Of a DNA stretch of 32,274 nt, positions 5,554 through 27,149 are shown in pieces. The DNA comes from a virus. Where the stretch lies: the IMG/VR virus record IMGVR_UViG_3300028790_000014, positions 1 to 32,274 of that record. One strand, 5' to 3'. The position numbers were made by a program, and so were the translations under genes. The notes beneath the pieces are model-generated. The model saw nothing but the letters and a program-made list of their open reading frames with translations. It had not been told where the DNA came from and did no database searches. The number at the start of each line of letters is the position of its first letter. Position 1 is the first letter of the stretch.

Positions 5554-6795
5554 TCAGTGGATCATGGTGACCATAGGCCCGCCAGCCGCCGGGACCACCA
5601 CGGCGACGGACGCCCAATGCTCCAGCATCACCTGTGTGACGACGGCCTGGAGGTTGCCGGACGCGACGCTGGCCCAGTGCTCGGCCACAACCTGGGTGAC
5701 CTGGGCCTGCGGACTGGTGGTCAGCCAATGCTCGGCGACGGCCTGCGATGCGAGTGCGTTGGTGGGAACAGATGCGCCTGCGGTGAAGCCGGATGTGTAG
5801 CCGCTTGGCACTGCACCGACGAACGCGGTGTCACCGAAGTTGGCTGTGATCTGATCGGATGTCGCCTGCAATCCTGCAAACGGGAACGCCTGAAGTGCCG
5901 CGCCGAAGTTGAATATGGCGACACCGCCAACACCCGTTGCCGGATTGTATGTCGCGTTATTGTTCCAGTTTCCTGCTGCGCCAATGCGAAACCAGATCAA
6001 GCGCGCAGTGCAATCGAGCGCAATGCACACGACATTGCCATTGGCCAGGGATGTGCCGAACGTGAAGGCGTTCACGCCGTTGGCCCACACCTGTCCCGAT
6101 GTCTTATTGATCTGGCAAGCATTGAGATCAGAAAGCGCACCTGCTGATGTCATCAGGCTGGTTGCAATGCCGAGGGACGTATTCGCGCCTGCTATCACAT
6201 TGCAGGTGTATTCAAAGTAGAACTTGCCCGCGACCTGACAGTCTGCTGCGCGCACGATCCCACGCGATACTGACGTGGACGTGGCAATCAGATTGCTGCC
6301 AGTCAGCGTGATGTTGGCGGTCTTATCGCTTGGGTTCCACGTTGTGTTGGCTACCCCAGAGTCAATGCTGAACTCGATTTCATACAGATAAGGGCTGGTG
6401 CTTGCCGTGCCCGTGGTCTGCAGCATTCGATAGTAGCGATAGGCCGTGGCGTTGCCGGATAGCGTGGTGATGGTCTGCGTCGCGGCCGTGCCAAGCGTGA
6501 ACGTGCTACCGATATTTGTCCACGCCGAGTTGTCAGGCGAACCCTGCCACTGCCAGTCGCCATGAGCGGCGATGGCACTCTGATACCACTTGGCTTCAGT
6601 GATCAGACGCGGCGCGGCGAAGGTGAACTTCACCTCGACACCGGAGTTACCGCTGTTGAACCACATTGAGGTGACCGCTGCCGTCACGCCGTCGACTAGC
6701 AGCGAAACAGCGCCGGTGAAGTTACCGGTTGTGGTGACGGTGATGATGCCGGCGCGGTTACCTGATCCGCCGGGGTTTGAGTAGGACTGAGCCAT
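5554..6795 (-). CDS. Tail protein with discoidin-like and SPRY-like domains
   Basis: This is a 413-residue protein. Residues of about 55-145 (VKFTFAAPRLITEAKWYQS to YRYYRMLQTTGTASTSPYLYEIEF) look like an F5/8 type C (discoidin-like) carbohydrate-binding fold. Residues of about 150-330 (GKFYFEYTCNVIAG, GQVWANGVNAFTFG, GVGGVAIFNFG, ITANFGDTAFVGAVPSGYTSGF) have the pattern of a SPRY domain as found in phage fibres. The C-terminus carries three copies of a VTQVVAEHW(A)SVA-like repeat. The protein probably binds surface glycan or decorates a fibre. It follows a ConA-like tail protein by 1 nt and is preceded by only a weak ribosome site, so coupling to the upstream gene is likely. Confidence 0.7.
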   Translation of the reverse strand: MAQSYSNPGGSGNRAGIITVTTTGNFTGAVSLLVDGVTAAVTSMWFNSGNSGVEVKFTFAAPRLITEAKWYQSAIAAHGDWQWQGSPDNSAWTNIGSTFTLGTAATQTITTLSGNATAYRYYRMLQTTGTASTSPYLYEIEFSIDSGVANTTWNPSDKTANITLTGSNLIATSTSVSRGIVRAADCQVAGKFYFEYTCNVIAGANTSLGIATSLMTSAGALSDLNACQINKTSGQVWANGVNAFTFGTSLANGNVVCIALDCTARLIWFRIGAAGNWNNNATYNPATGVGGVAIFNFGAALQAFPFAGLQATSDQITANFGDTAFVGAVPSGYTSGFTAGASVPTNALASQAVAEHWLTTSPQAQVTQVVAEHWASVASGNLQAVVTQVMLEHWASVAVVVPAAGGPMVTMIH

Positions 6796-16735: not shown

Positions 16736-16848
16736 TGGAAGTCCTCCCAGTCGCGGGCGAACTGTTCCCAGGTCATGGTGGGATGCAGCCTGCGGGCCAC
16801 GTCCCACCACTCCAACTGGTCGTATTCGTCGAGGCGCGTGTCAGGCAC
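16675..16848 (-). CDS. Small ORF overlapping PEP-CTERM gene end
   Basis: This is a 57-residue ORF from a GTG at 16848 that spans the stop of the PEP-CTERM gene. The sequence PDTRLDEYDQLEWWDVARRLHPTMTWEQFARDWEDFQCLKR resembles small phage proteins with an E-W/F-W-D-x-x-R-x-L-x-P-x-x-T-x-E-x-F motif. The last 18 residues (after LKR) are low-complexity and overlap the next gene. This suggests either a real overlap or a displaced frame. Translation would depend on coupling to the upstream gene, as the ribosome site is weak. Confidence 0.5.
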   Translation of the reverse strand: MPDTRLDEYDQLEWWDVARRLHPTMTWEQFARDWEDFQCLKRTTSGRHGWSGGSSIA

Positions 16849-17485
16849 GCCGATACCGCACCATGCCCAGACCCAGCAGTCCCATGCCGAGAATCCCGAG
16901 GGTCATCGGCTCGGGCACCGTCACTGCGCCGGTCACCAGCTGGATGGTGTCAGCAGCCGCCTGTCCAGCCGCTGTGAAGGTGATCGAGTAGTCGTGCCCG
17001 GTGCTGGTCACCAAGGCCGGCAGCGGATCGGTCTCGCTGGTGGTGGCGTTGGTCGTGATCGGGAAGGTGTTGCTGGCGAACAGCGCGCCATTCACATTGG
17101 TCGACAGCGTCGCCGGCCCGAACGGACCGCCCACGAGGTGGTTAACGGTGAAGGTGGACGTGGCGTCGGCACCGCCGGTCAGGATATTGAGACCGGTCTG
17201 ATCCACCGAGATGTCCAGCACGTGGGTGCCGCCAGTCGCTGCGGTGGCGTCGATCGTCAGCGAGGCGAGCGAAGCGCCGGGCAGCGGCGGGTTGCCGGCT
17301 GCTGCGATGTCGATGCTGGCGAAGTGCGTGCTGGCACCGTCGCAGCTGATCGACGCATTAATGCCACCCGTGCAGACCAGCGCCACAGCCACGCCGTCGT
17401 CGAGCGCGCTGATGGTGATCACCCCGGCCATGGCTGGCGATACCAAGGCGAACAATGCAGCGCCTGCGAGCAGTACCTGTCTCAT
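16841..17485 (-). CDS. PEP-CTERM sorting-signal protein
   Basis: The gene encodes 214 residues with GGGGGA 6 nt before the ATG; the longer in-frame ORF upstream is rejected. Residues 1-20 (MRQVLLAGAALFALVSPAMA) are a clear signal peptide. The mature part is a Thr/Ala/Val-rich beta protein with only two Cys (CTGGINASISC), like a secreted adhesin or matrix protein. Residues 190-214 are a textbook PEP-CTERM tail: VPEP, then a Gly/Leu membrane helix (TLGILGMGLLGLGMV), then RYRRA. Such proteins are exported and sorted by host exosortase/EpsH into the exopolysaccharide envelope. Its place between scaffold-like and capsid genes is highly unusual. It may be a host-derived moron that alters the cell surface (inference). 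Confidence 0.88.
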   Translation of the reverse strand: MRQVLLAGAALFALVSPAMAGVITISALDDGVAVALVCTGGINASISCDGASTHFASIDIAAAGNPPLPGASLASLTIDATAATGGTHVLDISVDQTGLNILTGGADATSTFTVNHLVGGPFGPATLSTNVNGALFASNTFPITTNATTSETDPLPALVTSTGHDYSITFTAAGQAAADTIQLVTGAVTVPEPMTLGILGMGLLGLGMVRYRRA

Positions 17486-17522
17486 GTGCGTTCCCCCTGA
17501 ATAATGTTGCCAGTGTGACAGG

Positions 17523-17543
17523 CTACCACTGCGTGTGTCCATT
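17523..17543 (-). pseudogene. Remnant copy of scaffold-like gene 3' end
   Basis: Reading the minus strand, 17543-17523 is AAT GGA CAC ACG CAG TGG TAG, coding N-G-H-T-Q-W-stop. The scaffold-like gene ends at 17680-17660 with the same six residues (AAC GGG CAT ACG CAG TGG TGA). The sense codons differ only at three third positions; the stop codon also differs. A stop (TAA) lies four codons before this copy, so it is not expressed as a protein. It looks like the trace of a duplication flanking the hairpin/pentamer array between the two copies. Confidence 0.45.
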
Positions 17544-17571
17544 GCGGATAAAGATGCATTAGGGCAACATA

Positions 17572-17631
17572 GACGTGGCATGGCAGCGTGCGGCGCGGCG
17601 CGGTTTGGCGCGGCACGACGTGGCGGGGCAG
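17572..17631 (-). repeat. Pentanucleotide-periodic array (NNGCC), 12 units
   Basis: On the minus strand 17631-17572 divides exactly into twelve 5-base units, eight of which fit NNGCC: CTGCC CCGCC ACGTC at the start and CTGCC ATGCC ACGTC at the end. It begins 6 nt behind a hairpin at the scaffold-like gene's 3' end. A second array with the same period and orientation relative to its gene is at 28176-28254. The array lies in the 174-bp spacer between the scaffold-like and PEP-CTERM genes. No convincing promoter is seen in that spacer. Confidence 0.7.
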
Positions 17632-17637
17632 TAACGG

Positions 17638-17666
17638 GTGGTGACCGGGGAATCCTCGGTCACCAC
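17638..17666 (-). terminator. Hairpin at scaffold-like gene 3' end
   Basis: GTGGTGACCG at 17638-17647 pairs perfectly with CGGTCACCAC at 17657-17666, with a 9-nt loop. It includes the stop codon of the scaffold-like gene and is followed on the minus strand by a GC-rich pentamer array, not by a T run. It may be an attenuator, mRNA-end stabiliser or weak terminator. Confidence 0.45.
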
Positions 17667-18760
17667 TGCGTATGCCCGTTTGGTCTTCCGGCTCGGCGGG
17701 CGCCGATCAGTGCTGCGGCATTATTCACTGAAGGCCGCTGCTCAAACGCCTCGGACGCCTCCCTGACCCGCGCGGCAGGTGGCGGCGGTGGAGCGGTCCC
17801 GCGCGGCGCATGCCCGACAGCAGGCTGCGTCGCCTGGGGCTTAATGCGGGCCTGGTAGCGATCATAGAGCGAGGCCTTGAACAGCGTCTCCAGATACTTC
17901 GCGCTGGTCAGCCCGTGTAGTTCCTGATCGGTGTAGCCCTGCGTGCGGGCCCAACTGATGATGTCCTGCTGGATCTCCCGCCTTTGCTGCGGGTCTGACC
18001 AGAACGGGTATTTCTGGGCAAGCTCGTGATTCGCCTGATCGACGGCCTGGGCCACCGCCGCCTCGCGGGCCTGGGCTTGGTGCGTCTGGATCGCCAGCAC
18101 GCGCTGGTGCTCGATCTGCGCATCCTGCCAGGTCGCCAACTGGTCCCAGTACGCCGCCGGGTCGGTCTGGCGCAGCTGCGGGTCAGGGCGCGGCGCTTCA
18201 GCAAGCCGGCGTTGCAGCGCCTCAATCTCAGGCTGGATCAGCGGCAGGGCGGCTGCCAGGGCCTGCTGCTGCGCCTGTAGCTGGCGCGCCTGGGCGGACA
18301 ACTGCTGGGTCTTCTGCGTGTAGTCCTGCGCCTGACGCACTGCGGCAGCCAACTCGGCCTGTGTGTAACGCCGGCCCTCCAGTTCGATTTCTGCCGGGGT
18401 TTGGGCAGGCGTACTGCCGGGTGTTTCACGTGAAACACTGTCGCCCGCGTCAGGTGCGTCACCAGAGTCCAACCCCAACGCCCGCTCCAGCGCCGACATG
18501 CCGCCGGGTTGGGCGGATTCTGGCGGGGTTGGGCGGGGTCTGGCGGGTTCTGGCGGTGGCGCTTCTCCTGAGTTGTGCCCGTAACCCCCGGAGTTATCCC
18601 CAGGCGGCGGCGCTGCCTGGGCGCGGCGGTGGTTCCGCAGCATCCGCGCGGCATCGCTGACGCTGAGCTCGGGGCGGGTGTCGGGTGCGGGCGCGAAGTC
18701 GCTGCTGCTGGTGTCGGCGGCAGGCGCGGCTGGCGAGGCCGGGCCGGTGGTTTCGCTCAT
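17660..18760 (-). CDS. Scaffold-like head protein
   Basis: This is a 366-residue protein with AGGGGGA before the ATG. The layout is a disordered Pro/Ala-rich N-terminus (about 1-120), an AEIELEGRRYTQAELAAAVRQAQ hinge, a long Gln/Ala coiled coil (about 140-240), a folded segment (KYPFWSDPQQRREIQQDIISWARTQGYTDQELHGLTSAKYLETLFKASLYDRYQA), and a basic, Pro-rich C-terminus ending NGHTQW. This is the usual build of phage scaffolds encoded between portal and capsid. Codons 109-113 (VSRET) are written by a perfect parS sequence. Its last six codons recur in a remnant 137 bp downstream. Confidence 0.8.
   Translation of the reverse strand: MSETTGPASPAAPAADTSSSDFAPAPDTRPELSVSDAARMLRNHRRAQAAPPPGDNSGGYGHNSGEAPPPEPARPRPTPPESAQPGGMSALERALGLDSGDAPDAGDSVSRETPGSTPAQTPAEIELEGRRYTQAELAAAVRQAQDYTQKTQQLSAQARQLQAQQQALAAALPLIQPEIEALQRRLAEAPRPDPQLRQTDPAAYWDQLATWQDAQIEHQRVLAIQTHQAQAREAAVAQAVDQANHELAQKYPFWSDPQQRREIQQDIISWARTQGYTDQELHGLTSAKYLETLFKASLYDRYQARIKPQATQPAVGHAPRGTAPPPPPAARVREASEAFEQRPSVNNAAALIGARRAGRPNGHTQW
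18421..18438. promoter_or_regulatory. parS: parS-type ParB-binding site, copy 1
   Basis: GTGTTTCACGTGAAACAC is an 18-bp perfect palindrome whose central 16 bases (TGTTTCACGTGAAACA) are the universal chromosomal parS sequence bound by ParB/Spo0J. It lies inside the scaffold-like gene, coding VSRET. An identical 18-mer occurs at 25756-25773. No parB is seen in the window, so binding of the host's ParB is inferred. Confidence 0.85.
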
Positions 18761-18800
18761 TTGGTCCCCCTAAAAGGAATGCAAATGGAACAGCAACGAG

Positions 18801-18840
18801 TCTCGTTCCATCTCATTCCATCTCATTCCATCTCATTCAT
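18801..18840. repeat. Four 10-bp tandem repeats (TCTCATTCCA)
   Basis: TCTCGTTCCA, TCTCATTCCA, TCTCATTCCA and TCTCATTCAT stand head to tail with no spacer, overlapping the 3' end of the 95-residue gene and reaching into the leader of the scaffold-like gene. A short inverted repeat (AACGAG-T-CTCGTT) abuts the array. The 10-bp period is close to one DNA turn. This could be an operator or protein-binding array; the function is unknown. Confidence 0.6.
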
Positions 18841-19120
18841 GCACGGTCGCCTGCTCCTGGTCCTCGGCGTCCTGCATCGGGCGGCGTGCCGCCTCCTGAA
18901 GCCGCGCCTTGAGCTCGGCAATGGTGAGCACCTTCACCCGTGCGGCGTCCCGAACCTCCAATTTATCATCGAAAAGCGCGGTATTTGACGCTGCATGCTG
19001 CATTTGGTCGAGGAAATCGACGAAAACCGCGTCATTCAGCACTCTTTGGGCCATGGAAGCCTCCTGACGGGCCTCCATGATGCTTTTTGGCTCGGCATTG
19101 AGGTCCAAAGTCCAGTTCAT
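18833..19120 (-). CDS. Small head-module protein
   Basis: The gene encodes 95 residues starting in an ATGA overlap with the HTH ORF. The sequence is NWTLDLNAEPKSIMEARQEASMAQRVLNDAVFVDFLDQMQHAASNTALFDDKLEVRDAARVKVLTIAELKARLQEAARRPM, helical and acidic-basic mixed. Small helical proteins are common between portal and scaffold genes in such phages. No motif fixes the function. Its 3' end runs into the 10-bp repeats. Confidence 0.65.
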   Translation of the reverse strand: MNWTLDLNAEPKSIMEARQEASMAQRVLNDAVFVDFLDQMQHAASNTALFDDKLEVRDAARVKVLTIAELKARLQEAARRPMQDAEDQEQATVHE

Positions 19121-19326
19121 GGTGTTTTCCGCTTCACAGTCGGGTCCATCTCGCGCGTTCTGAGGTCTTTTCGGGTCAAAATGGCCTTGGAAATCACGCT
19201 GGAGATGGTTCCGAGGGGTCTTTTGGTCAGTTCCGCGAGCTCTGGATAGGTTTTGCCCTGGATTCGGAGGGTTATGATCAAATCCCGCTCCGTCTCGCTC
19301 ATCGGGCGCTTGGTGCGGTCACCCAT
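19117..19326 (-). CDS. Small helix-turn-helix protein
   Basis: The product has 69 residues from the ATG at 19326; the frame continues upstream through the repeat array, but that part is low-complexity. The core SETERDLIITLRIQGKTYPELAELTKRPLGTISSVISKAI is a homeodomain/sigma4-like HTH: E-L-A-E-L-T-K-R-P as the first helix and turn, then G-T-I-S-S-V-I as the recognition helix. The C-terminus is basic. It may regulate head genes, or bind the adjacent phased repeats (inference). It overlaps both neighbours slightly. Confidence 0.65.
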   Translation of the reverse strand: MGDRTKRPMSETERDLIITLRIQGKTYPELAELTKRPLGTISSVISKAILTRKDLRTREMDPTVKRKTP

Positions 19327-19507
19327 GGCGAGCGATTTCGAGCGATTTGAAGCGATTTGGCGCGATTTCCGACGATATTCCCGGAGCTCTGGCGGAATTT
19401 GGCGGAATTTGGCGGAATCTGGCGGATGGCAGATTTCCAAACCTCGGGGGGAGGTGGCCAAACCTAGGGGCGAGGTTTGGTCCTTTCGTTCCGGTCTGCT
19501 CGCTCAT
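19319..19507 (-). CDS. Small ORF over phased repeats
   Basis: This is a 62-residue ORF whose ATG overlaps the portal stop (ATGA), which supports translation. The product SEQTGTKGPNLAPRFGHLPPRFGNLPSARFRQIPPNSA is Pro/Arg/Phe-rich and partly repetitive, because the DNA beneath is made of 10-bp repeats. It may be a short leader-type peptide, or the frame may only be a by-product of the repeats. Function unknown. Confidence 0.4.
   Translation of the reverse strand: MSEQTGTKGPNLAPRFGHLPPRFGNLPSARFRQIPPNSARAPGISSEIAPNRFKSLEIARHG
19331..19430. repeat. Two 10-bp-phased repeat arrays in a 100-bp block
   Basis: 19331-19380 is five units of the pattern AGCGATTTNN (the last degenerate), and 19391-19430 is four units of GGCGGAATTT. 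A single 10-bp segment separates the arrays, so all ten decamers keep the same phase. They lie in the 5' part of the HTH-encoding frame. This looks like a helically phased binding region (operator, packaging signal or origin-type element). The function is unknown. Confidence 0.65.
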
Positions 19508-22266
19508 GCGCCCGGCCTGACCGATGGCCCACCCATGCCAGCGATGTTGCCGGCCACCGCCCGATCGGCGATCTGGCCATACGTCGTCGGTAAGTTACCG
19601 GTAGCGAGCGCCTGGCGAACCATATGAGCGGTGTCGGGCGGGGTGGAGCCTACCGGCGGCGCCACCGGCGCCTGCGGACGCTGGGCCCCCAGGCCACCGC
19701 CCTGTCCCGGCGCCATCCCCATCATCGGCGAGGCTGGCCCCGGCTTGGGCTGCTGCGGCCCCTGCACACCGGTTGCCGGCTGCTGCGGGGACGTAGGCGG
19801 CGGCAGGTCGCCGATGAGGCCAAGGTTGGGCTGGTCTGGCTGCATCGCCGCGCGTAGCTCGTCGAGGCTCGGAACAGGCGTGCCGAACTGCGCGCCGATC
19901 TTCCAAAGCTCAACCCATGCGTCCAGCGCCGCCTTGTCGCGCTCGCGATCGTCGTCCGACAGCGCCTTACTGCGATCGGTCTGCGCCTTGGCACGATCCG
20001 TCTCCAGATCTGCGGCGGTCTTCTGCTGCTGCACCATGGCCAGCACCTGCTCCGGAGTTGGCCCCTGGTTGGGCGGCGGCGGCTGCCAGCCGTCCGGTAA
20101 TTCCTTAAAATAGTTGCTGACGTCGGCGATGTTCGCGGTCTCCAACATCCTGGCCAAGGTATTGCGGTATTCCGGCACTCCCACGAGCGGGTTGTGCAGG
20201 CCGTAGTTGGTGATGATCTGCTCCTGCTTGCCGGCAATCTGGGCGAGCATGGCGAGGCGCTCCATCGGCATACCCTTGCCGCCGACCTCGACCGCGGCTT
20301 CCCACATCGTGCCCAGCGCTCTGGGATCGATCGATATCCACTCGCCCCGGATGCGGATGACGTTGGGCCGGTCCTGCTGCTTGGCGAGCATGCGCAGGAG
20401 TCCCGAATAGAGCGGCGCCAAGCCGGTTTCGGCCAAGGTGCGCGCCATCATGTCGAGCCGGTCCTGCGCGGCGGATGTCTGCTGCGACACGGCGATCGGC
20501 GCGGTGCTCTGGAGTTCGTCGACGGTGAGGCCCTGGGAGGCGCGGGTGATGCCAGTACGTGATTCACGCACGCCCTCGAGCAACTGCATGATCGGCAGCG
20601 CCGCTGCCCCGGCGAACGGCTTCACGAGCTCCTGCACGGCGCCCTGCTGTGCAACGCGGATAATGCTGCCGATCGCGGTCTGGCGCACGTCGGACATGTT
20701 CACCTGACCGAGGGTGATCACGGTCCGCGGGTACATCGCCTGCCCGAGGCTATCGAGCGTCGCGCGCATCACCCTGGACTGCAGGCGTTGCAGGTCCATC
20801 ACCATGTCGGACACAGACGACCCGATGATCCGCCCCGGCTCGCGGTAAGGCGTGAAGCACGACAAGGGGATCTCGTCGGTGCGCTCCCACTGCACCAGAC
20901 GGCAGTCGTCGCCGAGGCTGTGGGTGTGCAGCAGCTCCGCCTTGTGGTCGTTGTCGGCGTCGCACCTGATCCAGCCTTCGATATAGCGGATCATGCCCAT
21001 GCTGCGGTCGTTGGGTGGCCCGCCGTGCATGTGGTGCCCTGATGCACTGTCACGGGCGATCGCCTCGCGCCGCCACTGCGTCGTGGGCGCTGAACCACCA
21101 GCACGCAGCACCGCGTGCTCATCCAACCCCATCTCGATCAGGTCCGAGGCGGATACGTCCCTGACGTGAAAAACACCGCGCGCTTCCTTCACCGTCGAGG
21201 CGTCGGACACCACCCACACGCATTCGGACGGCACCGATTCAACGATGGGCCACGCCTGCTGCACGCTGCGTGTGATGGTGGCGCTCCAGTATTCCGCTGG
21301 CCCGCCTTGGCCCAGATACATCTGGCCTTCGGGCGTCTTGGCCATCGCCTCCTGCTCGACCCTGGTCATCGGTCGGCGTACGATGCGTTGCGCCTCGATG
21401 CCCGGCTCGGCGAGCAGCATTTGCAGTTGCGGCAGGATGAGGCCCTCGGCCACCTCGGTGCGGATCTGCTGCTTCTTGCCCCACGACCAACGCACCCAGC
21501 CGGCTTTGCGGGTGAGCGCATCGAGCAGCGCATCGTGCAGGATCGACCAGCCGGGGTTGGCCACGAACAGCGCCCAGCGGGCGTAGTCGGTAGCTTGGCG
21601 GCTTAGCATCGTCGCCAGCTTGTCGTTGCCGGATATCTCGCTGCTGATCGGCTCGAAATGCACCGGGTCCTCGACGCCGGTGAACACGCGCAGCAGGCTT
21701 GGGAGTGTCGAACGAATCGTATCCCTAACAACAGTCATCACCAACTGAGAACGACCCTTTAACGCCGGTTCGTCGCCGAAGCCCTTACCGTTGTAATATT
21801 CCGACGCCGTAACCCTCTGGTTGCTCAGTTCCTCGTCATAGTTTCGCGCGATACCAAAATAATACCTGTTGATCTCGGCAATCTCGCTGTCCTCTTTGCC
21901 GAGTCGAGCGTAAACGACCTCCTGCACCCACGGGGTCGAGGATGGCTGCACGCTAGGACGCAGGCCCAGCGCATAAGGCCGGATTTCCGGCGGCAGGTCG
22001 TCGGTCGGGTCGTCCGGGATGTCCTCGTCTTTGCGCCTGGGCAACAACGTCGCAATCACCTGATGGTCCGTGGGTCTCTGGCCCATCGGGCGCACCAGCC
22101 CCTCGATCGGTGGCAGCGGGGGGGCGCCGTAGCTCTGCGTGTTGGGCGCCAGCAGGCCCTGCTGCGGCGGGGTCATGCCCTGCTGACCCACCTGCGGCGC
22201 CATCGGGTTAACGCCCTGGCGCAGGCCGGGCGGTGGCACGAGTCCGGGAGGTAAAATGCCGCTCAT
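19504..22266 (-). CDS. Portal protein
   Basis: This large portal of 920 residues starts at the ATG in an ATGA overlap with the DUF3309 gene. A Pro/Gln-rich N-terminus (about 100 residues) precedes the folded part: EDSEIAEINRYYFGIARNYDEELSNQRVTASEYYNGKGFGDEPALKGRSQLVMTVVRDTIRSTLPSLLRVFTG. Later segments are DALTRKAGWVRWSWGKK, PSECVWVVSDASTVKEARGVFH, RDEIPLSCFTPYREPGRIIGSSVSD-like parts and GITRASQGLTVDEL. This is the P22/SU10-like portal pattern. The C-terminal 150 residues are helical, then Pro/Gln-rich. It forms the dodecameric ring at the vertex and docks the terminase. Confidence 0.85.
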   Translation of the reverse strand: MSGILPPGLVPPPGLRQGVNPMAPQVGQQGMTPPQQGLLAPNTQSYGAPPLPPIEGLVRPMGQRPTDHQVIATLLPRRKDEDIPDDPTDDLPPEIRPYALGLRPSVQPSSTPWVQEVVYARLGKEDSEIAEINRYYFGIARNYDEELSNQRVTASEYYNGKGFGDEPALKGRSQLVMTVVRDTIRSTLPSLLRVFTGVEDPVHFEPISSEISGNDKLATMLSRQATDYARWALFVANPGWSILHDALLDALTRKAGWVRWSWGKKQQIRTEVAEGLILPQLQMLLAEPGIEAQRIVRRPMTRVEQEAMAKTPEGQMYLGQGGPAEYWSATITRSVQQAWPIVESVPSECVWVVSDASTVKEARGVFHVRDVSASDLIEMGLDEHAVLRAGGSAPTTQWRREAIARDSASGHHMHGGPPNDRSMGMIRYIEGWIRCDADNDHKAELLHTHSLGDDCRLVQWERTDEIPLSCFTPYREPGRIIGSSVSDMVMDLQRLQSRVMRATLDSLGQAMYPRTVITLGQVNMSDVRQTAIGSIIRVAQQGAVQELVKPFAGAAALPIMQLLEGVRESRTGITRASQGLTVDELQSTAPIAVSQQTSAAQDRLDMMARTLAETGLAPLYSGLLRMLAKQQDRPNVIRIRGEWISIDPRALGTMWEAAVEVGGKGMPMERLAMLAQIAGKQEQIITNYGLHNPLVGVPEYRNTLARMLETANIADVSNYFKELPDGWQPPPPNQGPTPEQVLAMVQQQKTAADLETDRAKAQTDRSKALSDDDRERDKAALDAWVELWKIGAQFGTPVPSLDELRAAMQPDQPNLGLIGDLPPPTSPQQPATGVQGPQQPKPGPASPMMGMAPGQGGGLGAQRPQAPVAPPVGSTPPDTAHMVRQALATGNLPTTYGQIADRAVAGNIAGMGGPSVRPGA

Positions 22267-22442
22267 CCGATGCGTCCCATCAGTAAGAGAACCAGCAGCA
22301 CCAGGATGACCAGCCCGACGATGCCGATGCCCGGCCCGTAGTAGGGGCTGTCGGCGTAGTAGTGACCGCCGCGGTAGCCCCACCAGCCGCCGAACATCAC
22401 CATCAGCAACACCACGATCAGGATGATGGCGAGCGGGCTCAC
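22263..22442 (-). CDS. Small two-helix membrane protein (DUF3309-like)
   Basis: The gene encodes 59 residues from a GTG start overlapping the previous TGA (GTGA). The layout is a membrane helix (LAIILIVVLLMVMFGGW), a Tyr/Gly-rich loop (WGYRGGHYYADSPYYGPG), a second helix (IGIVGLVILVLLVLLLM), then GRIG. This build matches the small DUF3309 family found in proteobacteria and phages. The function is unknown; a membrane location is clear. An upstream role in lysis is possible but unsupported. Confidence 0.7.
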   Translation of the reverse strand: MSPLAIILIVVLLMVMFGGWWGYRGGHYYADSPYYGPGIGIVGLVILVLLVLLLMGRIG

Positions 22443-22591
22443 TTCTTGCGTGCCGGCAGCCGCTTGGTGCCCTTCTGCTGGTCAGCCTTGGCGAAGTCTT
22501 TGCCGACCTTCTGCGGCACCCCGGCGTAGCCGCCCTTGGTGTGCGCCGCTGCCTGCATCAGGCGTGCTTGCGACTTGGATTTGCTGGGCAT
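22439..22591 (-). CDS. Small basic head-module protein
   Basis: The product has 50 residues; the start is supported by AGAGG 6 nt before the ATG. The sequence SKSKSQARLMQAAAHTKGGYAGVPQKVGKDFAKADQQKGTKRLPARKK resembles the short K-S-K-x-Q-x-R-x-M and VPxKVxKxF phage proteins often seen near portal and terminase genes. It is strongly basic and possibly binds DNA. Function not established. Confidence 0.7.
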   Translation of the reverse strand: MPSKSKSQARLMQAAAHTKGGYAGVPQKVGKDFAKADQQKGTKRLPARKK

Positions 22592-22594
22592 GGG

Positions 22595-22930
22595 TTACCT
22601 CTGGAACTCGGGGAAGTCCGTCTGCTGGCTTATGCCTCCGGTCACCCCGGCAGGTCGGTCGGGGCGAACGGCGTCCGTGGCGGCGCGCATGATGGCGTCG
22701 GCGATGCTGGTCGGCATGCCGCTCTCCAGCAGCCTGTGGCGCAGCCTGAGCCGGTCCTCGCCGGCCTGGAGGCGGCGGGTCACGTGCTCGACCAAGTCGG
22801 TCTTGCTCGCCTGAGCGCGCACGTTGGCGGCGACCACCTGCTCGGCTGCCTTGGCCCGCGCCGTCAGCAGGAAGCCCAGGCGCTGGTCATCGCTGGTAGC
22901 GGTTATCCGCTCGATGTGGATCAGCTGCAT
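22595..22930 (-). CDS. Unidentified head/packaging-region protein
   Basis: The gene encodes 111 residues. The ATG at 22930 overlaps the HNH stop as ATGA and has GGGGG 8 nt upstream; a GTG at 22945 is an alternative. The sequence is HIERITATSDDQRLGFLLTARAKAAEQVVAANVRAQASKTDLVEHVTRRLQAGEDRLRLRHRLLES, helical with alternating basic and acidic residues. A position between packaging and portal genes suggests a packaging or head accessory role. No family is recognised. Confidence 0.6.
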   Translation of the reverse strand: MQLIHIERITATSDDQRLGFLLTARAKAAEQVVAANVRAQASKTDLVEHVTRRLQAGEDRLRLRHRLLESGMPTSIADAIMRAATDAVRPDRPAGVTGGISQQTDFPEFQR

Positions 22931-23400
22931 CAGATGTGCCCCCACGTCTTGCGTGTGCGGATGTACCAGGCCGCCGCCTGCGAAATGCCGAACCTGTCGG
23001 CTATCTCGTACGTCGTCTCGGTGGTGGATCGCCGAATCTCCAGCACTTGGTCGGCGGTCAGTTTGGCCTTGTTATTCTCCTCGCCGCGCCGCCATACGGG
23101 CAGGACAAACCTGCCTCGCCTTATCGAGTCGGCGGCATTAGTCCGGTAGTCGCCCCAGTAGAGGTGATCGGGGTTCACGCAGTTGGGCATATCGCAGTGA
23201 TGGCAAGCAAATGAGCGATCGTGTGGCCTTGGCCTACCATCCATCTCTAACGAGATGTGGGAAGCAAGTCGTCTCGGCCCGTTCATGTTCAGCATGCCGT
23301 AGCCCTGCTGGGTTGCGGCACCATCCCACAACCAACACCCGCTGTTTGGCTCGGGCGAAACGTATTTCCAGAAGCGCTGCTCTACGGTGCTCTGCATCAT
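22930..23400 (-). CDS. HNH endonuclease with C-terminal helix-turn-helix
   Basis: This protein has 156 residues. The HNH_3 part is PEPNSGCWLWDG, ASHISLEMDGRPRP and FACHHCDMPNCVNPDHLYWGD (about residues 16-87), with the active-site His pair present. The C-terminal part (LTADQVLEIRRSTTETTYEIADRFGISQAAAWYIRTRKTW) is a resolvase-like HTH that probably recognises DNA. It is joined to TerL (ATGA at 23397-23400) and to the next gene (ATGA at 22928-22932). This is a common homing-type nuclease next to the terminase. The target is not known. Confidence 0.88.
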   Translation of the reverse strand: MMQSTVEQRFWKYVSPEPNSGCWLWDGAATQQGYGMLNMNGPRRLASHISLEMDGRPRPHDRSFACHHCDMPNCVNPDHLYWGDYRTNAADSIRRGRFVLPVWRRGEENNKAKLTADQVLEIRRSTTETTYEIADRFGISQAAAWYIRTRKTWGHI

Positions 23401-24884
23401 TCCATTCCTGGTATGCTGCCCATTACGGGAGCGCTATCATATAACCAACTCTGGTTCGCCGATGTGACCATGAGTCCCTGTTGCGCCAAGGTTAACATCA
23501 GCGCGTCGGCACTGTCGCAGCTGGGCAGGCCTCTGCGCCTCATACTCTCCTTCGATTCAATTTGCAGCTTGCCCGTGGATGAGAATGTATATCTGGCGCT
23601 CACCAGATCGTCGCGCATCTGATCGTCTCTGGGCAGGCGCACGGTACGGGTGGCGAGCCACTCGCGCATCCTGGCCCAAAGTTCATCACGCAAGCGCATA
23701 TAATTATTTGCATTGGCCGGTGACTCAGAGACGTTGACGCCCAGCACCGGCAGGCCCTGCTCTTGCAGGCGGTCCACCACACCAGCGCCAATGCCGATTG
23801 AGTCAATCGCGATCAGCGATGGCCGTGAGGCCTGCGCCAAATCGAACTCGTGCTTGACCGCGCCGGCCAGGACCATCAAATCGATGTTGCGCCAACGGCG
23901 CGGCGGCTCGGTGACGCACGCGCCCTGACGCTTGATCAACACCGATGCGTCGGCGCCGAAGCGCGCGCAGTCTAACCCCCAAAGAATCGGCGCACCGGTA
24001 TCGAGCACTGTGTCCCGGTTCATTGCAGCATCTACAAGCTCGCCGGGGATGAATGTATCATCGCTACCGGCGGGGAACTGACCCAGCACGCGGACCCTGA
24101 ACGCGTTGCTCTCGGGGCCGTATCTTTGGCTCATCTCAGCCACGTAGGCCGGATCGACACGTGTGCTCTCGGCAGAGCTCACCGTCATGCAGCGCCAGCG
24201 ATCGCGCTCCAGCGTGTGAGTGCGCCAGAAGAACCCCGAGTCGCGCGTTGGGTTACCGATCAGCAGCGTGATCGCTCCGGAACTACTCATTGAGCCGCTG
24301 GCAGCCTCGTAGACCTTCTCGTCGATGCCCGATGCTTCGTCCGCGACCAAGAGTATGTTGGCACTGTGCAAGCCGGCCATCGCCTCGGGGGTCTCGGGGC
24401 GGGATGTCCTCGCCGTAACGAAGCACTCGCGGTCACTCTTGAGGGTAATGTGGTCGGCGGTCACATCCCACAGCGCCTGCCACTGCTCGGGCATACGGCT
24501 CATCCACTTGAGGAGCTCGGGCCATAGGACATCGAACAGCTGGGGCGCGGATGGTGCGGTCAGCGCACACTTAAAGGGTGCACGGGTGCAACAAAACCAC
24601 AAAACAACCCACGCAGCCAAGCAGCTCTTTCCGACACCGTGACCACTTTTGATGCTGTGCCGGGTGAAGCCCCTGGCGAAGCCACGCAGGGCCTCGATCT
24701 GCCACGCATCCGGCTCCTGCAGGAGCACTTCCCTCACAAAGGCGATGGGGGCGCGGTTGTAGCGCTGCAGCGCGAAGTCGAAGGCGGAAAAATCGGGCGG
24801 TGCGTCGTTGGGAGGAGACGCAGCGCCCGAAGTAGAATCGCTCGTATCTGGCGCCAGTATATCATGTTGCAGGTGCAGCGTCAT
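23397..24884 (-). CDS. terL: Terminase large subunit
   Basis: This is a 495-residue protein. The ATPase half has Walker A SGHGVGKS (residues 80-87) and Walker B ILLVADEA (177-184), followed by a coupling motif around LLIGNPT. The nuclease half has the acidic triad in GLDCARFGAD (Asp305), LIAIDSIGIG (Asp361) and SCDSADALML (Asp457 and Asp460). The sequence is a complete packaging motor-nuclease that translocates DNA into the head and cuts the concatemer. It overlaps the small HTH gene upstream and the HNH gene downstream by 4 nt. The packaging strategy (headful or cos) cannot be told from sequence alone. Confidence 0.95.
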   Translation of the reverse strand: MTLHLQHDILAPDTSDSTSGAASPPNDAPPDFSAFDFALQRYNRAPIAFVREVLLQEPDAWQIEALRGFARGFTRHSIKSGHGVGKSCLAAWVVLWFCCTRAPFKCALTAPSAPQLFDVLWPELLKWMSRMPEQWQALWDVTADHITLKSDRECFVTARTSRPETPEAMAGLHSANILLVADEASGIDEKVYEAASGSMSSSGAITLLIGNPTRDSGFFWRTHTLERDRWRCMTVSSAESTRVDPAYVAEMSQRYGPESNAFRVRVLGQFPAGSDDTFIPGELVDAAMNRDTVLDTGAPILWGLDCARFGADASVLIKRQGACVTEPPRRWRNIDLMVLAGAVKHEFDLAQASRPSLIAIDSIGIGAGVVDRLQEQGLPVLGVNVSESPANANNYMRLRDELWARMREWLATRTVRLPRDDQMRDDLVSARYTFSSTGKLQIESKESMRRRGLPSCDSADALMLTLAQQGLMVTSANQSWLYDSAPVMGSIPGME

Positions 24885-25102
24885 GGGGCGAGGTGGCCAT
24901 AGTCGCGTTCACGCACGTAGCGGATCAGCGACCACGGGATGCCCACCTCGGCGGCGATGCTGTGGTCAGACGCGCCCTCGGCGTACTTCCCGTCGTCCCA
25001 GTCGAACGAAGCCTCCAGCTGCTCGCGGATCGCCCGCTTCTGCGCGTAGCTGAGCTCGCGGTAACGCACCTCGTGCGTGTGCGGCATCGACATCATCGAC
25101 AT
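24881..25102 (-). CDS. Small HTH protein, terminase small subunit candidate
   Basis: The product has 73 residues from the ATG at 25102, with GGGGGAG upstream; frames extending further right run through the opposite-strand gene. The sequence HEVRYRELSYAQKRAIREQLEASFDWDDGKYAEGASDHSIAAEVGIPWSLIRYVRERDYG contains an HTH (SDHSIAAEVGIPWSLIRYVRE). It lies directly before terL with an ATGA overlap, the usual place of the small subunit. It is shorter than most small subunits, so it may bind DNA without the oligomerisation part, or may be a regulator instead. Confidence 0.6.
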   Translation of the reverse strand: MSMMSMPHTHEVRYRELSYAQKRAIREQLEASFDWDDGKYAEGASDHSIAAEVGIPWSLIRYVRERDYGHLAP

Positions 25103-25166
25103 AGCGGGTGGCTCCCCCTGTGGGTAACATGCCACTACCGGCGGATTCCCGCCAACTGGAACGCCA

Positions 25167-27149
25167 ATGCCCAAGCCCTCGGACGATCCGCAGCTGGAAC
25201 AGCGTGTCGCTGCTCTGGAGGAGCATGCCGGTGCCACTGATGCGGCAATCGCCGATCTGGACGCGCGCGTGCTGGCTCTGGAGAACGCGGTAACGACACC
25301 CACGCCAGAGCCGCCGGGCGGCATCATAGACAATACCCTGCCGGAGCCTGAGCCCCCGATCGAACCGGAGCCTGAGCCTGAGCCTGAGCCGGGTGAGGGG
25401 CTGGCGGTTGTCATCCGCGCCGCATCCGGCGAGACCGTCTACGAGGAGGCGGGGGCCGAGAACCTGGGCGACTACGTCGACCCGGAAGGCGCCTTTGTGC
25501 AGCGCTGCTACCGCGCGCCGCGGCAGGACGACGCGCTGCCGGGGCTGACCGTGTGGTTCCGGCCAGACGCTGATGGCTCGCGGCAAGAGGTCGTCGTCGA
25601 GCTAGGCGTGCCGTTGGTGGACGGCCTGACGCCCGCCAACCTGGGCGCCTACGAGGCCGAGATCTGGGACGGCGACGAACTGGTGGCGACGGTCCAAGTG
25701 CCCAGCCATCCCTGGTATGCGCGCTGGCGCTGGCAGTCCGCGCCCAGGCCGGTGCGTGTTTCACGTGAAACACTGATCGCCTCGGGCAAGGTGCCGCACT
25801 ACGACGGCACGGTGCTCGGTCAGTTCATCGGCGATCTGGCGCCGCAGACGTACACCACCATGGGCTTTTCGGGCATGGTCACCGGCATGGGGTGGACCGG
25901 CGATCGCCCCGACATCGGCATCCTGACCGGCTGGTCCGCACAGTGGTTGTGCAAAGGGAACAACACCGAGACGGTCATTGCTCAGGGCGAGGCGTCGGGC
26001 ACCATCTCGATGCATCTGCGTGACCCCGTCACGGGTGCGCCGCTCGATCTGGTCAACGACTACCCGAAGATCACCAGCTACCCGAACGGCGGCGATCCGA
26101 TCGTGCCGATGACCAAGGGCATCGTCACCTACGACAGCGGGCACTCGCCTGCGTGCTCATACTTGCCGTGGCTGCTGACCGGCGACGTGTATTACCTGGA
26201 GGCGCTCCAGTTCCAGGCGAACATCGAGATCATCGGCGAGCCGGCGTCCGGTCGCTACACCTGGGCCGGGCGGTATGGCGCATGGCCGCTCAGGAACAAG
26301 CTGTATGCGGCTGTTGCCTCGCCGACCGATCCGCCGCGCTGGCTGCTGGCTCAATCGGTGTTCCACGCGCACATGGAGGGCGTGCGCTCCGAGATGCTGA
26401 AGGACATGGCCAACGAGGACCCGATCCTGTCGGTATTCCGTGCCAGGCAGTTCGGTGGATCGCAGGGCACCCCGGCGCATCCATCCGGCACGTATGCCGT
26501 GTTCTGGCAGTGTGCCATGGAAAGCTTGGTGTATGGGCTGTGCGTCCAGCTGGGCTTCGACGAGTGGAGCGAACCGCTGGTCTGGAAGATCGATTCCGAG
26601 GTCCAGAGAACCAACGGCGAAGCCTGGCCACGCGCCACGCCAGTGCCATACAACACCGGCCTTGTATATACATGCAACCTGACGGCTGCGATCACCGCGA
26701 CCGACACGTTCATACCGGTCGATCACTATGCCGGCGGGCCATGGCCCGTGGAACCGTTCTCGGTCAAGTGCCAGAACGAGGTGATGACGGTCGTGGACAA
26801 GGGCGATGGGGCGCTGTGGCAGGTCCAGCGCACCGCTCCGGTGGCGCACGCAGCTGGTCAGGCATTGGTCGGGCCAACGTATCTGTCGTGGCTGGAGTGT
26901 GCGATGCGGACGGTCGCGATGCACCCGGACGAAGTGCCGTTTGCCCCGGACGATCCGACCGGCATGGCTGAGCTCTACAACGAAACGTCGGGCAGCGTGG
27001 GATACGCGCAGTATGCCCGTGCGGCGCTGGCTGTGGCGGTGCGCTGTGGCGTGGCGGAGGCTGCGTCGAGCTATGCGTGGATCGACGATGAGTTCACCAA
27101 GCATAACCGGAGCTCATGGCATCCTGCCTGGGGGTGGTGCATCACCTAG
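25167..27149 (+). CDS. Large coiled-coil/alpha-toroid protein on the plus strand
   Basis: The gene encodes 660 residues on the strand opposite to the head genes. Residues of about 8-42 form a coiled coil (LEQRVAALEEHAGATDAAIADLDARVLALENAV). Residues 43-76 are a Pro/Glu linker with 6-bp DNA repeats. A beta domain follows (about 80-195, ending HPWYARWRWQSAPRP). The long helical region from 210 has HSPACSYLPWLLTGDVYYLEALQFQANIE, resembling an alpha/alpha-toroid of carbohydrate-active proteins. Catalytic residues cannot be named. A tail-associated or polysaccharide-acting role is inferred. A parS sequence codes VSRET at residues 198-202. Its stop shares CTAG with the opposing microprotein. Confidence 0.75.
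   Translation: MPKPSDDPQLEQRVAALEEHAGATDAAIADLDARVLALENAVTTPTPEPPGGIIDNTLPEPEPPIEPEPEPEPEPGEGLAVVIRAASGETVYEEAGAENLGDYVDPEGAFVQRCYRAPRQDDALPGLTVWFRPDADGSRQEVVVELGVPLVDGLTPANLGAYEAEIWDGDELVATVQVPSHPWYARWRWQSAPRPVRVSRETLIASGKVPHYDGTVLGQFIGDLAPQTYTTMGFSGMVTGMGWTGDRPDIGILTGWSAQWLCKGNNTETVIAQGEASGTISMHLRDPVTGAPLDLVNDYPKITSYPNGGDPIVPMTKGIVTYDSGHSPACSYLPWLLTGDVYYLEALQFQANIEIIGEPASGRYTWAGRYGAWPLRNKLYAAVASPTDPPRWLLAQSVFHAHMEGVRSEMLKDMANEDPILSVFRARQFGGSQGTPAHPSGTYAVFWQCAMESLVYGLCVQLGFDEWSEPLVWKIDSEVQRTNGEAWPRATPVPYNTGLVYTCNLTAAITATDTFIPVDHYAGGPWPVEPFSVKCQNEVMTVVDKGDGALWQVQRTAPVAHAAGQALVGPTYLSWLECAMRTVAMHPDEVPFAPDDPTGMAELYNETSGSVGYAQYARAALAVAVRCGVAEAASSYAWIDDEFTKHNRSSWHPAWGWCIT
25756..25773. promoter_or_regulatory. 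parS: parS-type ParB-binding site, copy 2
   Basis: GTGTTTCACGTGAAACAC, the same 18-bp palindrome as at 18421-18438, contains the universal 16-bp parS. It lies inside the 660-residue gene, again coding VSRET in frame. The two copies are 7335 bp apart. No ParB homologue is seen in the window; host ParB is the expected partner. Confidence 0.85.

Follow-up and report, generated by a model that had tools for sequence, protein, structure and literature searches.

Why should a virus with no recognisable ParB carry perfect copies of the parS site of bacterial chromosomes? The question is raised by the stretch of DNA analysed here (the window), a virus record of 32,274 bp. The window is a fragment of an SU10-like podovirus; the genes for its portal, major capsid and adaptor proteins find their matches in the SU10 group, and its right end carries a primase-polymerase gene and an AAA ATPase gene. 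Bacterial chromosome segregation depends centrally on ParB, ParA and SMC, and a coat of host ParB on phage DNA, if it forms, would bear on the placing, separation or protection of phage genomes in the cell. Our reading, to which we give a probability of about 70%, is that selection on the DNA maintains the palindromes as chromosomal-type parS sites, that host ParB is predicted to load on them and spread, and that the phage would use the resulting coat.

Two parS-type palindromes within genes

The parS 16-bp palindrome TGTTTCACGTGAAACA is present in two exact copies in the window, both times as part of the same exact 18-mer, GTGTTTCACGTGAAACAC (Table 1). A scan of the whole window revealed no further position within three mismatches of the 18-mer, and 100 dinucleotide shuffles gave no match to it. 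From base composition, 1.2e-6 copies of the 16-mer are expected in the window, and the probability of two copies is ~1e-12. An earlier note on this DNA had reported two perfect parS-type palindromes, and this observation is confirmed: both are exact and occur far above chance.

Table 1. The two palindromes and the genes that contain them, in window coordinates.
Feature	Position	Strand	Description	Remarks
Site A	18421-18438		Perfect 18-bp palindrome with 16-bp chromosomal-type parS core	Inside the scaffold-like gene; codes VSRET
Site B	25756-25773		Second perfect 18-bp parS palindrome	Inside the 660-aa gene; codes VSRET
Gene containing site A	17660-18760	-	366-aa scaffold-like protein	phrog_3927 head scaffolding protein, E 1.5e-22; codon usage
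Gene containing site B	25167-27149	+	660 aa, unknown function	Codon usage score 0.349, GC3 0.82

Both of the genes that carry the sites look real. Site A is positioned in the low-complexity N-terminal part of the scaffold-like protein. The gene around site B has a codon usage like that of the known genes of the window, runs on the strand opposite to the head genes and is conserved in close relatives; the minus-strand ORFs over site B were ruled out by their negative codon usage scores. The 660-aa protein matched no Pfam family above the cut-off and gave no significant match in a PDB sequence search, its only match being a weak one in EBPR siphovirus 1, and its predicted structure was discarded at a mean pLDDT of 36.

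Two neighbouring genes are of separate interest. An HNH endonuclease gene (22930-23400) adjoins the terminase gene, in a segment that is missing or replaced in several relatives. The protein beside the capsid gene (16841-17581) has a PEP-CTERM-like C-terminal motif that is barely above the Pfam cut-off and is odd for a phage.

Codon choice and close relatives

At both sites the VSRET residues are written in identical codons, GTT TCA CGT GAA ACA, which bears out the claim of the earlier note that the two genes agree at every wobble position. These codons end in A or T within GC-rich genes and are rare for the virus; given VSRET and the codon usage of the virus, their probability is 3.8e-5 per site. 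Relatives were gathered by their portal protein, which yielded 43 loci; among deposited phages, no near relative of the window was found. Site A is perfect in six relatives that cover it (L139, L126, L124, L155, L123 and L127), and is altered, with a decayed look, in three others (L130, L147 and L133). Site B is perfect in seven relatives that cover it (L122-L125, L128, L135 and L138), appears as a one-base variant in L129 and L160, with two relatives reading VSHET, one base away, and is missing in five (L130, L132, L136, L137 and L147). Where site B is lacking, the relatives read VTREQ, VSREQ or ISREQ, encoded by different codons and aligned without a gap.

Because carriers were defined by exact codons, invariance within that set is circular. 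The sounder observation comes from the relatives as a whole, none of which shows a synonymous variant with VSRET in different codons, and the claim of selection on the DNA withstood this check of codon conservation in related phages. The carriers of site A are close relatives, which makes conservation at site A weak evidence. A tree of the site B gene, computed after excision of the site, places the carriers mainly in a single clade and shows one apparent loss. Not every member of the virus group has the sites: both are missing from several relatives, among them the near-complete G026, indicating that the site is not essential. On these comparisons, we favour the view that selection acts on the DNA itself. 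The interpretation given in the earlier note is therefore supported in part, for selection on the DNA and for the lack of a ParB of the virus's own; for the remainder, we infer that host ParB would bind and spread, and that the phage would benefit.

The same word at other places in the wider group

More distant relatives were collected by profile search, and most of this wider group has no site. Those relatives with the word at other places show 57-76% protein identity. In one of them (L187, portal 76%), the same 18-mer is found elsewhere in the scaffold linker, with a second copy between genes. In L188 the 18-mer occupies another position of the scaffold linker, where the L189 sequence differs from it by one base. 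L143 and L146 share a perfect 14-bp core, which also codes VSRET, in the tail of a DUF5681 gene adjoining the terminase gene; in L142 this core differs by one base. Within the proteins, these places are not equivalent, and the word thus seems to have arisen, or moved, several times in the wider group.

Near-complete relatives and the search for ParB

A relative genome of 41,891 bp (G034) has two ends that share 159 bp at 97.5% identity, in an overlap that stops 19 bases before one end, and was on this basis taken as complete or nearly so. It holds exactly two parS, at 5961 and 40401, which match sites A and B across the join. Neither ParB (PF02195, TIGR00180) nor ParA (PF13614) is matched in the window or in this genome, in agreement with the earlier note, which had seen no ParB in the window. 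A ParB hidden elsewhere in the genome was rejected on the lack of a PF02195 or TIGR00180 match in this near-complete relative. G034 encodes an ERF recombinase and a weak YdaS/Cro-like protein, and no tyrosine integrase was found in it. The ends of G026 (41,629 bp) also overlap, and this genome has no parS.

Two distant relatives, G020 and G035, do have ParB_N domains, but neither record contains parS. The G020 protein (L166, 1345-3258) is 637 aa long, with the ParB_N domain at its start followed by a long C-terminal part, which we take to be DUF5131-like; it is probably not a segregation ParB.

The host of the virus can only be guessed to be an alphaproteobacterium. The nearest terminase kin in genomes are those of Reyranella and Vineibacter, a weak match at 43-44% identity, and in one of these two genomes (G124) the 16-mer is not matched, even with one mismatch allowed. 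The portal protein gave no match among GTDB genomes.

The site is enriched in viruses at large

In IMG/VR the 16-mer occurs in at least 119 stretches (93 clusters among the matches listed), compared with 3 and 11 for two control palindromes of the same letters, and in deposited phage records in 286, compared with 0 and 0 for the same two controls; the enrichment is based on these two controls, in collections that oversample some clades. Many small contigs deposited under Listeria phage LM 4-11-1 and LM 4-14-1 (OR846722-OR849501) look like assemblies contaminated with host DNA and inflate the parS count.

Deposited carriers include phages of Bacillus, Listeria, Gordonia, Vibrio and Roseobacter as well as filamentous phages, and the largest named carrier groups are Listeria, Microbacterium, Arthrobacter, Gordonia, Bacillus and Lactobacillus phages, microviruses and inoviruses. 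Phages of enteric bacteria are not in the ten largest carrier groups; such phages are very numerous in the deposited collection, and their hosts are not known to have chromosomal ParABS. A ParB_N match above the cut-off is missing in 13 of 14 named carriers and in 47 of 50 IMG/VR carriers chosen among the longest. Most carriers have one or two sites per genome.

Several individual carriers deserve mention. A bajarodino inovirus of 5,843 bp (L250, PQ006099.1) and related ones are filamentous viruses with five or six perfect parS in less than 6 kb, and no ParB was found in the one tested; this density is centromere-like, and viruses of this type persist in cells that stay alive. Two related IMG/VR contigs (L018 and L045) each hold five parS within about 0.8-0.9 kb, again a centromere-like cluster. 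The T5-like Vibrio phage phi 3 (L244, KP280063.1) has the same 18-mer at 1501-1516, in the left terminal repeat between A1 and A2; in T5, that left terminal part enters the cell first. The B. subtilis phage B103 (L242, X99260.1; 18.6 kb) has one parS (1501-1516) in gene 15 and no ParB match, and, being a cultured Bacillus phage, offers a ready laboratory test system.

A model of parS use, and its alternatives

There is no recognisable ParB in the virus, so it is the host's ParB that would load on the phage genome at the two sites. Once loaded, ParB would form a closed, CTP-dependent clamp and spread along the phage genome; the resulting coat would present this DNA to host ParA, following the behaviour of ParB summarised in PMC12704722. 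Host ParA, SMC, whose recruitment at parS is described in PMC10197239, or other nucleoid machinery would then most likely position, separate or compact the copies of the phage genome, as at the chromosome origin. Taken by itself, a role in positioning or segregation falls slightly short of even odds in our estimate.

The main rival accepts that host ParB binds the sites and differs in purpose, which would be removal rather than use. Replicating phage genomes would act as decoys, titrating host ParB off the chromosome origin and disturbing segregation or the cell cycle to the benefit of the phage. This explanation draws on the same sequence evidence as the preferred one; replication would multiply the sites, and some small phages carry many of them, such as bajarodino virus 69 with five in 5.8 kb. 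With one or two sites per genome, however, most carriers would have few for titration early in infection, a count that speaks mildly for use over titration, and we regard the decoy as unlikely. A different binder is also conceivable, namely a phage-encoded DNA-binding protein, either an unrecognised ParB-like protein or a repressor, that shares its target with ParB by coincidence. The weak YdaS/Cro-like protein of the near-complete relative and the many genes without a known family leave room for one, but there is no PF02195 or TIGR00180 match, and the same 16-mer in unrelated phages, down to genomes of 4-6 kb, is hard to obtain through separate phage proteins; we consider this improbable.

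Two further explanations dispense with any role for the phage. A small mobile palindrome, like the palindromic elements of bacteria, could insert in frame, as might be suggested by the recurrence of the word in several genes of the group that are unrelated to one another and by the location of site A in an indel-rich linker. At site B, however, the alignment with relatives lacking the site shows no gap (VSRETL versus VTREQL), which indicates that the site arose there by substitutions; an insertion relative to empty sites is thus not seen at site B and is less clear in the linker of site A, making this explanation very improbable. The word could also have arisen by chance, without function, and been shared by descent, and close relatives do share the sites by descent while some are without them. 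Against this stand an expectation of about 1e-6 per window, the several separate positions in the wider group and the enrichment over control palindromes in two collections, and we give this explanation hardly any weight.

The preferred reading remains that chromosomal-type parS sites are kept so that the phage can use host ParB. Extended to viruses at large, we lean somewhat towards the view that possession of the host's centromere site without a ParB is a strategy common among phages, which has arisen repeatedly in tailed, filamentous and microviral phages of ParABS hosts and by which host segregation machinery would handle phage DNA during infection. If host ParB does coat phage DNA, such phages would be natural parS reporters, and the site could serve as a host signal, since it would be expected mainly in phages of ParB-carrying hosts.

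Comparison with known systems

In the open-access literature, whose coverage is incomplete, we found no paper on chromosomal parS in ParB-less phages and no description of phages using ParB, ParA or SMC through chromosomal parS; this is not proof of novelty. Chromosomal ParABS shares with the phage the identical 16-bp word, the consensus used in PMC10197239. Chromosomal parS, however, are concentrated near the origin of replication, and the genome they belong to encodes ParA and ParB, whereas the phage sites are inside genes and neither parA nor parB is matched in the window or in the near-complete relative. P1, N15 and extrachromosomal mycobacterial prophages (see also PMC7157519) likewise have a centromere site on a phage genome, but these phages encode their own ParA and ParB with their own site, and neither gene was found here.

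The closest precedent is SGI1, which carries two mimics of the parS of the IncC plasmid, shown to bind the ParB of that plasmid and to stabilise SGI1 (PMC10954446). Both SGI1 and the phage are mobile elements without a cognate ParB that hold two parS copies. In SGI1, unlike the phage, the ParB comes from the IncC plasmid rather than the chromosome, and the site is a different one; SGI1 is moreover an integrative mobilisable element and not a phage, and ParB binding is proven for SGI1 whereas for the phage it is inferred. Mimicry of parS by an element without ParB is therefore known already, and the phage would be a further case that differs in the site, in the ParB and in the kind of element.
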